Shown here in pieces: positions 12,459 through 29,894 of a DNA stretch of 64,000 nt. The translations under genes were made by a program, and so were the position numbers. The stretch comes from Gemmatirosa kalamazoonensis (lineage in GTDB: Bacteria; Gemmatimonadota; Gemmatimonadetes; Gemmatimonadales; Gemmatimonadaceae): contig NZ_CP007128.1 in assembly GCF_000522985.1 (NCBI RefSeq), forward strand, positions 1,100,220 to 1,164,219, given 5' to 3'. Numbering within the stretch: the first letter of the stretch is position 1; every line of letters starts with the position of its first letter. Below the pieces are notes generated by a model. It searched no databases. It saw nothing but the letters and a program-made list of their open reading frames with translations, and had not been told where the DNA came from.

Positions 12459-12578
12459 GCGGCAGTGCCGATGGGGTGGGAAGCGAATGTGTGGAACGCG
12501 GTGTATCGTGAGGTTCCGCGTTAGGCCGTGGTTCAGCGTACGCAGTCCAATGAGCGTTCGGCAGACCAGGAGAACTCC
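12459..12578. other. Junction region with an isolated GTTAGGC core-like word
   Basis: The gap between the channel gene and the lower-GC gene cluster contains GTTAGGC near 12520 preceded by a 7-base inverted repeat (AACGCGG ... CCGCGTT) with a 14-base loop. It could be the outer boundary of a gene-cassette insertion or a small terminator. The stem is too short for a normal attC site. Confidence 0.3.
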
Positions 12579-13121
12579 ATGCCACGTCTCTGGAAGAAGG
12601 GCCGCGGGAAGCTCGGCGTCCTCGCGCCGCTGCACGGCGCGTGGGTCGCTGAGGCGGAGTCACCGCGTGGGCCACTGCGCTGCTATCGACAGCTCGCTCC
12701 GGTACTGGGCGGCAAATACTTGCAGCTCGATGTCCGCTGGGAGTTCGGGTCCGCGACCGCGGGCGCGGCATACGAGGAGCGCGCGCTGATCGGCGAGGGC
12801 GCCGACGGGGCCGTGGGTTTCTGGTCGTTTACGTCGGACGGCAAGCGCTCGGAGGGGACGCTCGCCGACGTCACGGACCTGCACGCGGAAGCCGTGGGCT
12901 TCGAAGCCGACATGCCTGCGGGGCGGGCGCGGATGGCCTACTGGCCCGCGGAGGACGGCGGGTTCCACTGGGTGGTGGAGGCCAAGACGAAGGCGGGCTG
13001 GCGTCGATTCACCGAACACCACTACCGTGCGGCCCCGGTGAGCTCTGGCGTTAGGCGGTCCTCCGAACGGCACGATGGCAACGTCGCCGCTGAATCTCTC
13101 GCACCGCTCACGACACCATGA
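12579..13121 (+). CDS. Hypothetical protein (DUF1579-like beta fold)
   Basis: About 180 residues from ATG 12579, chosen because of the upstream AGGAGA; the frame also opens at 12528. The sequence alternates beta strands (LHGAWVAEAESPRG, YLQLDVRWEFG, AVGFWSFTSDGKRSEG) in a pattern like lipocalin-type DUF1579 proteins. After about residue 155 (TEHHYRAAP) the frame runs through a GTTAGGC at 13050 and becomes unstructured, which suggests that the original 3' end was replaced at that junction. It overlaps the next gene by four bases. Base composition is lower in GC than in the flanking genes. Confidence 0.65.
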   Translation: MPRLWKKGRGKLGVLAPLHGAWVAEAESPRGPLRCYRQLAPVLGGKYLQLDVRWEFGSATAGAAYEERALIGEGADGAVGFWSFTSDGKRSEGTLADVTDLHAEAVGFEADMPAGRARMAYWPAEDGGFHWVVEAKTKAGWRRFTEHHYRAAPVSSGVRRSSERHDGNVAAESLAPLTTP

Positions 13122-13891
13122 CCGCACCACCCATTTCCATTCGTCAGGTGGAGCTGGCGGCGATCTCCGGGATGCGCGAAGCGTATCGCGCGGAGCAGGA
13201 CTGCCAGGTCGTCCACGATTCGATTCACACTCGTCGCGGCTGGACACGCGAGTTCGCAATCGCCGAGGGCGATCGCGTGGTGGCGTACGCCTCGCTTGCC
13301 GTCGATGGGCCATGGCGCGATGAGCCAACCCTCTATGAGCTCTACGTCGTGCCTGACCGGCGGTCACGAGCGTTCGCGATCTTCGAGGCGTTTCTCGAGG
13401 CGACCAAGCCGCGGCGGTTCGAAGTCCAGTCGAACGACCTGCTCCTGACGACGCTTGCAGTCACCTTCGCCCGAGAGCTCGCAACCGAGAAGGTGGTTTT
13501 TCGCGACGATGAGACGACGTCACACACGATCCCGGGCGCCACGCTGCGATGCCTCACACCTGCAGCGGAAATCCAGGAGGCGATGAGCGAGCGTGCCGGC
13601 GGCGGTGAGTGGGCGCTCGAAGTGGCTGGAATCGCCGTCGGAAAGGGTGGACTCCTCTTTCACTACAACCCGCCGTACGCCGACATCTATATGGAGGTCG
13701 ACGAGCCGCATCGGCGCCGGGGCTACGGCGGCTATCTCGTCCAAGAGCTGAAACGCCTGTGTCGCGAGCTCGGTGCGGTGCCCGGAGCGAGGTGCGATCC
13801 GACGAACGCCGCGTCACGGCGAACGCTTCAGCGCGCTGGGCTCGTCCCATACGCGCACATCCTGATCGGGTCGTTTCATCAGGATCGCTAG
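13118..13891 (+). CDS. GNAT family acetyltransferase
   Basis: 257 residues. Residues about 200-245 carry the acetyl-CoA-binding signature of GNAT enzymes (EPHRRRGYGGYLVQELK, then the ASRRTLQRAGL helix). The N-terminal half (residues 1-120) looks like a degenerate second GNAT domain. The acetyl acceptor is unknown. The start overlaps the previous stop (ATGA). Codon use is clearly less GC-rich than the genes on either side, consistent with recent arrival, and GNAT genes are common cargo of integron cassettes. Confidence 0.85.
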   Translation: MTAPPISIRQVELAAISGMREAYRAEQDCQVVHDSIHTRRGWTREFAIAEGDRVVAYASLAVDGPWRDEPTLYELYVVPDRRSRAFAIFEAFLEATKPRRFEVQSNDLLLTTLAVTFARELATEKVVFRDDETTSHTIPGATLRCLTPAAEIQEAMSERAGGGEWALEVAGIAVGKGGLLFHYNPPYADIYMEVDEPHRRRGYGGYLVQELKRLCRELGAVPGARCDPTNAASRRTLQRAGLVPYAHILIGSFHQDR

Positions 13892-13952
13892 CCGCTGCCG
13901 CCGCCGCGGAGCCGCGCGACACGACGCTAGCGAACATCACCACGAGCCCGCA

Positions 13953-14633
13953 ATGACGATAAGCCGCGTCAGCCAGATCGTGTTGGCGGTCAGCTTGGTG
14001 CTGTTCCCACTCTCGATCCTGACCTACTGGCTGCTTTATCCGGCCTATGGTCTGCTCGATTCCGTGGCGACGCTCCGCGCGATCGACGGACACGCCGCGC
14101 GTACCGCGACGGCGGACGTCTTCGTTTTCACCGGCGCGTTTCTCGCGGCTCCGGCGACGCTCGCCCTGATGCGCGTCCTCAACGCACGGTCTCCGAGACT
14201 CGCCGCGATCGGCGGCGCGCTGCACTTGATCGGTTGGATCGCGATCATCGGGGTCGTGATGGGAGACGTCATTGCCGTGCAGATGGTCAACGGCGGCACT
14301 CCGTCGCCCGACATCGTGCAACTGTATCGACACATCATGAGCAGTCCGCCAGTGATCGCGCTCAACATCATCGCGACGCTTCACGTGATCGGAGGGACGG
14401 TACTCGGCGTCGCGCTTTGGCGGACGCGCGTCGTGCCATCGTGGGCCGCCGTCGCGGCGACGTTTGCCCAGCCGACCCACCTCGTCTCGAATGTCGCGGG
14501 CATCCTCTGGATCGACGCGATGACGTGGATCGCGTTGGCGGCGGCGTTCGCGTTCGTCGCCACGGTGGTGCTTCGGCCTTTCGGGGACGCCGCGGGATCG
14601 ACGCCTCCTCGCGCGGCGCCTAACGTTGCATGA
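13953..14633 (+). CDS. Integral membrane protein of unknown function
   Basis: 226 residues with about six membrane helices (near 5-30, 55-75, 88-110, 135-155, 160-180, 190-212) and few charges. The pattern resembles small DUF4386-type proteins, but I cannot assign it firmly. Its last codons (CCT-AAC-GTT-GCA-TGA) lie inside the left core of the attC-like site that follows, as is usual for cassette genes whose stop codon overlaps attC. GC content is below the window average. Confidence 0.75.
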   Translation: MTISRVSQIVLAVSLVLFPLSILTYWLLYPAYGLLDSVATLRAIDGHAARTATADVFVFTGAFLAAPATLALMRVLNARSPRLAAIGGALHLIGWIAIIGVVMGDVIAVQMVNGGTPSPDIVQLYRHIMSSPPVIALNIIATLHVIGGTVLGVALWRTRVVPSWAAVAATFAQPTHLVSNVAGILWIDAMTWIALAAAFAFVATVVLRPFGDAAGSTPPRAAPNVA

Positions 14634-14720
14634 ACCTGACAGGCGGGTCTCGGTAGCGGCGCGGCTGCGCCCTCGCCGCATTTTATTGTGTTCGCCTGCA
14701 GGTCATGCTCGGCGTTAGGC
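14618..14720 (+). other. Integron attC recombination site
   Basis: 103 bases with full attC architecture. The outer cores are GCCTAAC (14618-14624) and GTTAGGC (14714-14720). Inside them, after an unpaired spacer (TT versus CCGA), the left arm GCATGAACCTGACAGGCG pairs with the right arm CGCCTGCAGGTCATGC except for two extra bases (A and A) on the left arm, as expected for the extrahelical bases that direct integrase. The 47-base centre contains a smaller GC hairpin. The site overlaps the stop of the preceding gene and ends 22 bases before the next start. No integrase gene is in the window. Confidence 0.8.
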
Positions 14721-14742: not shown

Positions 14743-15261
14743 ATGCCGGATACTCCGATCCTCCGTCACTTCTGGCTCGTCGTGCTGGCCGTGATGCTCG
14801 TGAACCTCGTGATCTGGCGGCAGCGCCTGAAGGCGGTCGTGGCGACGGGGCAAGCGACCCGCGAGGAGGCGCGCGAATTTCTGAGGGGCGTGGCGATCGT
14901 CGTCGCGGTGTTCTCGCTGGCGGGGGAAGGCATCGTCCTGGCGCCCGGGTGGCCGAACCCCCTGTGCTTCTATTCGGAGCCGTGGTCGGCACCCGGCGCG
15001 TTGGCCATGTGGGCGCTCACCGCGCTCGCCTGGGGCGGGTTGCTGGCATGGGTATGGCTCGGCGCCGGGGCAGAACGGCTCGCACGCCTCGGCGCCGTGC
15101 TGGTGGCCAAGCCGATGCCGGGGCGTACGTACTCGGCGCGCCAGGTGCGGCTGTACGTCACCGGGATGATCGCCGTCATCGCGATCGGACTCGCGATCGA
15201 GTTCACGGTCATGCCGAAACTTCCGCGCTGCGTCAGCACCCACGGCCTGACGACTGGTTGA
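14743..15261 (+). CDS. Small integral membrane protein
   Basis: 172 residues with four hydrophobic segments (about 9-26, 48-68, 83-105 and 138-157). I do not recognise a family. The gene starts 22 bases after the attC right core, the normal position of a cassette gene. It ends with an unusual hydrophilic tail (CVSTHGLTTG), and the following 120 bases hold no clear second attC, so this cassette may have lost its site. Confidence 0.7.
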   Translation: MPDTPILRHFWLVVLAVMLVNLVIWRQRLKAVVATGQATREEAREFLRGVAIVVAVFSLAGEGIVLAPGWPNPLCFYSEPWSAPGALAMWALTALAWGGLLAWVWLGAGAERLARLGAVLVAKPMPGRTYSARQVRLYVTGMIAVIAIGLAIEFTVMPKLPRCVSTHGLTTG

Positions 15262-15383: not shown

Positions 15384-15845
15384 ATGACTCTGAAGCGGAT
15401 GGACAACGTGGGCATCGTCGTCGAATCCCTCGATGCCGCGATCTCGTTCTTCTCCGAGCTCGGCCTGAGGCTCGAGGGCCGAGCCATGATCGAAGGCGAG
15501 TGGGCCGGGCGCGTCACCGGACTCGGGTCCCAGCGCGTCGAGATCGCGATGCTGGTCACCCCGGACGGCCACGGTCGGCTCGAGCTCTCGCGATTCCTCG
15601 CCCCACCCGTCGTCGCGGATCACCGCGGCGCGCCGGTGAACGCGCTCGGCTACCTGCGCGTCATGTTCACCGTCGACGACATCGACGACACGCTCGCCCG
15701 GCTCCGCACGCGCGGCGCGCAGCTCGTCGGCGACGTCGTTCAGTACGAGCAGGCGTACCGGCTCTGCTACATTCGCGGACCCGAAGGAATTCTCATCGGG
15801 CTCGCGGAGGAGCTCGGCCACGGCGCGCCGGCACCACGAAGCTGA
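15384..15845 (+). CDS. VOC (glyoxalase/bleomycin-resistance fold) protein
   Basis: 153 residues with two beta-alpha-beta-beta-beta modules of the vicinal oxygen chelate fold: the N-terminal module begins MDNVGIVVESLDAAISFFSEL and the second begins LGYLRVMFTVDDIDDTLARL. The closing motif YIRGPEGILIGLAEEL provides the usual metal-ligand Glu position. VOC proteins range from lyases to drug-binding proteins; the substrate is unknown. The gene sits at the downstream edge of the low-GC cluster and may be cassette cargo or native. Confidence 0.85.
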   Translation: MTLKRMDNVGIVVESLDAAISFFSELGLRLEGRAMIEGEWAGRVTGLGSQRVEIAMLVTPDGHGRLELSRFLAPPVVADHRGAPVNALGYLRVMFTVDDIDDTLARLRTRGAQLVGDVVQYEQAYRLCYIRGPEGILIGLAEELGHGAPAPRS

Positions 15846-28908: not shown

Positions 28909-29813
28909 CACAAGTGTTTGAGGAACCGTTCCGGCGCCTCCAGAAACGCCCGCGTCAACGTCACGTGCGGCAGCTCGGCGTAGGGCACCTCGCGCACCGG
29001 CGGGTCGTCGAACGCGTAGATGCGCGCGCCGGGATAGGCGAGCAGGATCGGTGAGTGGGTGGCGATCACGCACTGCGCGCCGTGGCGCACCGCGCGGTCG
29101 ACGATGGCGAGGAGCGCGAGCTGGCGGCGCGGGGAGAGCGGCGCTTCCGGCTCGTCGAGCAGGTACAGGCCGTCGTGCATGCGCGTCGCGAAGAGGTCGA
29201 GGAAGCTCTCCCCGTGCGACCGCGCGTCGACGCGCGGGAGCAGACGCGCCGCGGCCTCGGCGTCGGCGTCCGGCTCGTCGGCGCTCCACGCGTCGCGATC
29301 GCCGGGCGCACGGGCGCGGCGCTCCCGCTCCTCGCGCGCCACGCGCGCCGTCGTCAGCGCCCGGCGCCGCAGGTGGCCGAAGAAGTCCTCGGCCCGGAGG
29401 AAGAAGCCGCGCCGCGTACGCACCGACCAGGCGAGGCGCAGCACGGCGGCGAGCGCGCGCGGGCCGGCGAGCGTCGCGTCGTCGACCGCGTCGGCGGCGC
29501 CCAACGTCGGCAGCTCCGCGGCGACCGCGATCGCCTCGAGCAGCGTCGACTTGCCCGACCCGTTCTCGCCGACGAAGCAGACGACCGGCGCGTCGAGGTC
29601 GAGCGCGTCGAGCGCGCGGACGGCGGGCACGTCGAACGGGTAGACGCCCGACGCGCGCGCGGCGTCCGCGGTCGGCTTCCACGAGAGGCGCAGGAGGTGG
29701 GGCGCGCGCGGCACGCCCGCAAGCTCGCGCCGCGCCGCGCGCCGCGGCAGCCCCCGCGGCACTCGGGCGCCGCCTAACGACCGCCCAACGGCTCCCCGTG
29801 CGGCGGCGTTCAT
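28908..29813 (-). CDS. AAA family ATPase (ABC-type/OLD-like single-domain)
   Basis: 301 residues from ATG 29813; the frame remains open further upstream but only through repeat DNA and the antisense of neighbours. Walker A is GENGSGKST near residue 84, Walker B LYLLDEPEAPLS near 221 and the switch His in CVIATHSPILL near 257. This is the compact AAA_21-like ATPase without a nuclease domain, common as a stand-alone protein. The stop is at the end of repeat copy 3. Its role is unknown; it could be a defence or repair component. Confidence 0.88.
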   Translation of the reverse strand: MNAAARGAVGRSLGGARVPRGLPRRAARRELAGVPRAPHLLRLSWKPTADAARASGVYPFDVPAVRALDALDLDAPVVCFVGENGSGKSTLLEAIAVAAELPTLGAADAVDDATLAGPRALAAVLRLAWSVRTRRGFFLRAEDFFGHLRRRALTTARVAREERERRARAPGDRDAWSADEPDADAEAAARLLPRVDARSHGESFLDLFATRMHDGLYLLDEPEAPLSPRRQLALLAIVDRAVRHGAQCVIATHSPILLAYPGARIYAFDDPPVREVPYAELPHVTLTRAFLEAPERFLKHL

Positions 29814-29840
29814 GCCGCAGTTGGGCCGACCGCGTGCCGC

Positions 29841-29894
29841 CGTTGGGCACCCGTTGGGCACCCGTTGGGCACCCGTAGGGCACCTGTTAGGCCC
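29841..29894. repeat. 11-base tandem repeat of CGTTGGGCACC
   Basis: Four head-to-tail copies (29841, 29852, 29863 and, with TAGGGC, 29874), followed by TGTTAGGCCCC. The repeat lies in the divergent gap between the AAA ATPase and the ribbon-helix-helix-like gene, upstream of the latter's promoter. It repeats the GTTRGGC word that is over-represented across the window. Confidence 0.8.

Follow-up and report, generated by a model that had tools for sequence, protein, structure and literature searches.

A solitary intact integron attC site on the main chromosome of Gemmatirosa kalamazoonensis, probably the remnant of a decaying cassette cluster

The stretch of DNA analyzed here (the window; 64,000 nucleotides, C2:1100220–1164219) belongs to a 7.48-Mb genome in four contigs, among them C2 (5,311,527 bp), C3 (1,106,233 bp) and C4 (1,040,503 bp), and contains at positions 14618–14720 a genuine, full integron attC site. 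We consider it the last intact site of a decaying cassette cluster that has no adjacent integrase, with a probability of roughly 0.8. An intact attC left on its own in such a cluster is ordinary integron biology; the more surprising result is that the 7-mer forming its core box, GTTAGGC, is a dispersed motif repeated thousands of times in this genome.

Architecture and folding of the attC site

Integron recombination uses the folded bottom strand of attC as its substrate, and the site is defined by R and L boxes and by extrahelical bases. The corresponding parts of the window site are the following.

14618–14720, plus strand: intact attC, recognized by architecture, fold and covariance score
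14618–14624, plus strand: R'' box GCCTAAC
14628–14645, plus strand: L'' arm, GCATG-A-ACCTG-A-CAGGCG, with two extrahelical A's
14646–14692, plus strand: variable loop (VTS), 47 nt, with a stem of its own
14693–14708, plus strand: L' arm, CGCCTG-CAGGT-CATGC
14714–14720, plus strand: R' box GTTAGGC

The preliminary description of this DNA had proposed the two core boxes at these positions, paired inner arms with two extrahelical bases on one arm and an unpaired spacer, and an overlap with the stop codon of a gene; each of these features was recovered. The R'' and R' boxes are complementary at seven of seven positions and fit the RYYYAAC/GTTRRRY consensus, and one additional G-C pair adjoins them (G 3' of R'', C 5' of R'). 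The L'' and L' arms form 16 base pairs that leave two A's unpaired, both on the 5' arm (14633 or 14634, and 14639), with unpaired spacers of TT on the 5' side and TCGG on the 3' side. The TGA stop codon of the open reading frame at 13953–14633 is located at 14631–14633, within the L'' arm, and the gene and the attC have the same orientation.

Modeled as single-stranded DNA, the bottom strand forms a hairpin of -36 kcal/mol (z = -4.7) that was matched by none of 200 shuffles, and the top strand folds as well as the bottom strand. A scan for attC arms in 100 dinucleotide-shuffled versions of the window likewise yielded no equal. The site occurs once in the genome, as judged by a search for its half-site pattern; its DNA had no match in Rfam and none among plasmids and viral contigs.

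Identification with a covariance model

A covariance model was built from 25 attCs, nine from the C3 array described below and 16 from arrays of other Gemmatimonadaceae, with the window site and its near-twin left out of the training, and the trained structure displayed strong covariation. The model assigned 51.1 bits to the window site (E = 4.9e-12 for the window and 5.7e-10 genome-wide), and the next unrelated match in the window scored 16.6 bits. For comparison, the attCs of the C3 array scored between 40 and 90 bits, and those of class 1 integron cassettes 53.7 (aadA1), 44.6 (qac) and 37.0 bits (cmlA1). Across the 7.5 Mb scanned, nothing fell between 25.5 and 40 bits, and the 25.5-bit match comes from the complementary strand of a genuine attC. 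Neither a low model score nor a genome devoid of other attCs and integrases thus speaks against the identification: the score lies within the class 1 range of 37–54 bits, and the genome contains, besides an intact intI, over 90 further attCs that reach 40 bits. Another palindrome resembling an attC, at 29772–29892 of the window, was rejected: it consists of an 11-bp tandem repeat with GCCCAAC/GTTGGGC boxes and scores about 15 bits.

In common with class 1 and Gemmatimonadaceae array attCs, the window site overlaps a stop codon, has a similar covariance score and is built from R and L boxes, spacers that stay unpaired and a variable loop, with two bases extrahelical on the 5' (top-strand) arm. 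It differs from them in being solitary and in having its extrahelical bases separated by 5 bp rather than 6. Because the 7-base cores are so frequent in this genome, the identification rests on the pairing of the inner arms together with the extrahelical bases.

The resident integron and its relation to the window site

No integrase adjoins the window attC, in agreement with the preliminary description, and the intact intI of the genome is located on another replicon. The integron elements found in the rest of the genome, with attCs called by the covariance model, are as follows.

C3:856836–857774, minus strand: intact intI, 422.5 bits against a cut-off of 265
C3:810839–856168: array of 82 attCs
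C2:687601–692813: cluster of eight attCs without an integrase, of the C3 array type
C3:880953–881829: two attCs
C4:384966–385060, minus strand: single attC that follows a small ORF, with GTTAGCC as the left edge

The chromosome yielded no further integron integrase of full length; other matches to the integrase profile are distant and below the cut-off. In the C3 integron (C3:810839–857774), the array lies 3' of intI with its attCs oriented as intI, whereas the usual layout is divergent. The C4 site looks like a one-cassette insertion between GTTAGCC and the attC, to judge by its sequence.

A 1.1-Mb replicon of Gemmatirosa kalamazoonesis KBS708 was reported to carry one of the largest 'plasmid' integrons (IntegronFinder 2.0, PMC9024848), and the C3 integron is almost certainly the one already published. 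Our analysis confirms its intI and large array; the window site, in contrast, is located on a different replicon, is of a different attC type and, being solitary, would fall under the default reporting threshold of IntegronFinder 2.0.

The preliminary description had left two options, a cluster lacking an integrase or the tail of an integron elsewhere in the genome. The first, as an integrase-less remnant, is retained; the second does not apply to the C3 array, because the window site is on another contig and has different L arms (GCATG-ACCTG-CAGGCG compared with GTT-CAGCTG-CGGAG in the resident array). The array attCs also have in common GAATCGTTGCAGCTGACG..CGCAGCTGAACTC, which the window attC does not contain. 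Given the dissimilar L arms, the window attC did not simply hop from C3. Its closest counterpart is a near-twin in another Gemmatimonadaceae genome (G057:C8:7709–7805, 84% identity over 122 nt), embedded in a run of about 12 attCs with different genes. The presence of this twin in a foreign array and the lack of relatives of the adjoining gene, ORF1, within the class suggest that the ORF1 cassette was probably imported.

Genes and cassette borders

The genes and candidate borders around the site are listed below.

12520–12526, plus strand: GTTAGGC after the TMEM175 gene, a weak candidate for the left cluster edge (9/12 match, background level)
12579–13121, plus strand: small gene of a putative upstream (older) cassette, its frame continuing through the half-site
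13037–13056, plus strand: half-deleted attC comprising part of L', spacer and R' box (GGTGAGCTCTGGC-GTTAGGC; 11/12 upstream match)
13051–14714, plus strand: predicted 1,664-bp cassette with the GNAT gene and ORF1, from TTAGGC of the half-site to G of the attC R' box
13118–13891, plus strand: GNAT acetyltransferase gene (Pfam PF00583), putative first gene of the ORF1 cassette
13953–14633, plus strand: ORF1, encoding a membrane protein of 226 aa that resembles DUF4386 below threshold
14743–15261, plus strand: ORF2, 172 aa, patchily distributed, 3' of the attC, a possible third cassette
15384–15845, plus strand: VOC/glyoxalase-family gene, 88–89% identical to a homolog in genome G078

The half-site is located 1.66 kb upstream of the intact attC and is fused to the end of the preceding gene. 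The 12 bases 5' of its R' box match one attC of the C3 array at 11 positions. In a sample of about 275 GTTAGGC sites from outside the main array, matches of 11–12 of 12 occurred only in the C2 cluster, at the C4 attC, at C3 797161 (a weak attC-like site of 19.6 bits) and at the half-site, against a background of at most 9. Relatives of the gene at 12579–13121 stop just after ...HHYR, and the frame in the window extends to 13121. Taken together, the half-site and the frame running past the end of its relatives indicate that a small deletion probably removed the stop codon of this gene along with the 5' half of its attC. With the half-site as its left border, the next cassette would start at 13051 and hence have a length of 1,664 bp and two genes, GNAT and ORF1.

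No relative of ORF1 was found in 294 other genomes of the class, nor in plasmids or viral contigs; its N-terminal part is matched, at 82% over 39 aa, by a sequence at a contig end in a Terriglobia MAG. ORF2 has no recognizable attC of its own and no relatives in viral contigs. The VOC homolog in G078 has a degraded attC-like site on either side (24.5 and 17.3 bits), which suggests that this gene formerly travelled as a cassette. The GNAT protein is 79% identical to one in genome G299 whose gene has no attC adjoining it. The region at 12.5–15.5 kb has a GC content of 64–69% compared with 74% across the window.

At the DNA level, the VOC gene is about 80% identical to Rhizobium plasmid genes, a case of spread across phyla. 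In genome G302, GCCTAAC appears to provide the TAA stop of the TMEM175 gene.

Origin of the chromosomal cassette

According to the reading that we favor, the decayed cluster of two or three cassettes would run from the gene at 12579–13121 with its 5'-deleted attC to the cassette of GNAT and ORF1 with its intact attC, and would once have been larger, with ORF2 and the VOC gene perhaps being former cassettes. Besides the attC itself and the resident integron, the half-site, the lowered GC content, the absence of ORF1 from the class sample and the G078 homolog of the VOC gene speak for this reading. The bottom strand of the intact site would fold into a hairpin, IntI monomers would bind the R and L boxes, and the extrahelical bases would set the choice of strand. 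By analogy with other integrons, the window attC should be a substrate of the C3 integrase; IntI may have placed the cassette and, being intact on C3, could still excise or insert it in trans. Such a history would mean that cassettes have spread beyond the integron platform, as imported genes on the main chromosome whose sites are lost one by one, and the pairing of one intact with one half-deleted attC would capture this loss in progress.

Several observations weigh against a cluster. The model detects only one attC in the window. Clusters lacking an integrase (CALINs) are by default defined by at least two attC sites (PMC9024848), and the window falls outside this definition because it has one intact attC and the second is only a half-site; what it shares with CALINs is an attC and cassette-type genes away from intI. 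The GTTAGGC at 13050 might belong to the copies of this word scattered over the genome, although its upstream match is unusual. The GNAT homolog in G299 has no attC, and no empty site was found in relatives, many of which conserve TMEM175 without sharing its 3' neighbors.

We consider it rather unlikely that there was no former cluster and that IntI, acting in trans, placed one cassette at a GTT site of the genome. Loot et al. 2024 (cited in PMC11023631 and PMC12444791) reported cassette insertion at such non-canonical attG sites. The three other small groups outside the array (eight attCs on C2, one on C4 and two on C3) are compatible with this route, the C4 case in particular resembling a lone cassette between GTTAGCC and its attC, but the L arms of the window attC are unlike those of the resident array. 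The former cluster is favored because of the half-site at 13037–13056, which implies at least two consecutive cassettes.

Still less probable is that the site represents the tail of a chromosomal integron whose own integrase was lost long ago. In its favor, 48 of 79 Gemmatimonadaceae genomes have an integrase, and the window attC is of another type than the resident attCs; against it, no other full-length integron integrase was found on the chromosome. Finally, a chance palindrome, a transcription terminator or a repeat element mimicking an attC, which the abundance of the core 7-mer might suggest, is refuted on the present evidence by the inner arms, extrahelical bases and covariance score, by the near-twin in the cassette array of another genome, by the failure to call an intrinsic terminator at the site under the criterion of a stem plus T-run, and by the single genomic copy, which disposes of a REP or MITE repeat.

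GTTAGGC as a genome-wide word

The window contains 60 copies of GTTAGGC/GCCTAAC. Genome-wide, GTTAGGC occurs 5,148 times and the reversed control word 314 times. In a 304-kb sample of C2, C3 and C4, where it was the most over-represented 7-mer, 277 copies were counted compared with 7.3 expected under an order-2 Markov model, a 38-fold excess. The word is a strict 7-mer, with only GTTGGGC clearly enriched (3.2-fold) among its one-base variants; it is preceded by C in 88% of copies, so that its usual form is CGTTAGGC. In the sampled frames, 98 of 110 TTA codons lie within G-TTA-GGC. We found no strand bias of the KOPS or Chi kind over 104 kb of C2 (55 copies on the plus and 53 on the minus strand), and such a signal is unsupported on this contig. 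No published description of the repetition of GTTAGGC was found among open-access papers.

Given this frequency, core boxes alone are weak evidence for an attC in this genome, and matches to them are nearly worthless for this purpose. The array is not the cause of the excess, because only 26 of the 82 R' boxes on C3 carry GTTAGGC. The bodies of the C3 cassettes (37 kb) contain three copies compared with about 33 expected from the genomic density; cassette genes are thus largely without the word.

The distribution of the word over the 79 Gemmatimonadaceae genomes is bimodal: 21 genomes in 11 of the 35 genera have 87–1,474 copies per Mb, and the rest have at most 28 per Mb, fewer than of the control word. 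Among the sampled genomes outside the family, a weak excess was seen only in G096. An intI is present in all 12 enriched genomes of at least 90% completeness compared with 30 of 49 others (Fisher p = 0.012, uncorrected for kinship).

Dispersed genome motifs include the DNA uptake sequences of Neisseriaceae and Pasteurellaceae and the HIP1 motif of cyanobacteria. Compared with these, GTTAGGC is similar in its density of about 0.7 copies per kb, its mostly coding location and its restriction to certain lineages; it differs in that single-base variants other than GTTGGGC are not enriched and in being identical to the integron R box. The strong genome-wide over-representation by which uptake sequences are recognized is also displayed by GTTAGGC. 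By this analogy, it is conceivable, though doubtful, that in part of the Gemmatimonadaceae GTTAGGC also serves as a dispersed signal akin to uptake sequences or HIP1 that potentially interacts with integrons, given that any cassette end may bear the word. Cassettes might then be imported preferentially via GTTAGGC, or the thousands of chromosomal copies might act as landing sites for IntI. The word may act as a genome-wide signal, uptake-like or of another kind, that has yet to be described for the phylum, and its scarcity in cassette bodies and rarity in sister genera offer a handle for telling native from imported DNA.

Within one genus (g23), two genomes have 1,345 and 1,474 copies of GTTAGGC per Mb (G273 and G314, respectively) and a third (G307) has only 2, a contrast that could reflect recent gain, loss or misclassification.
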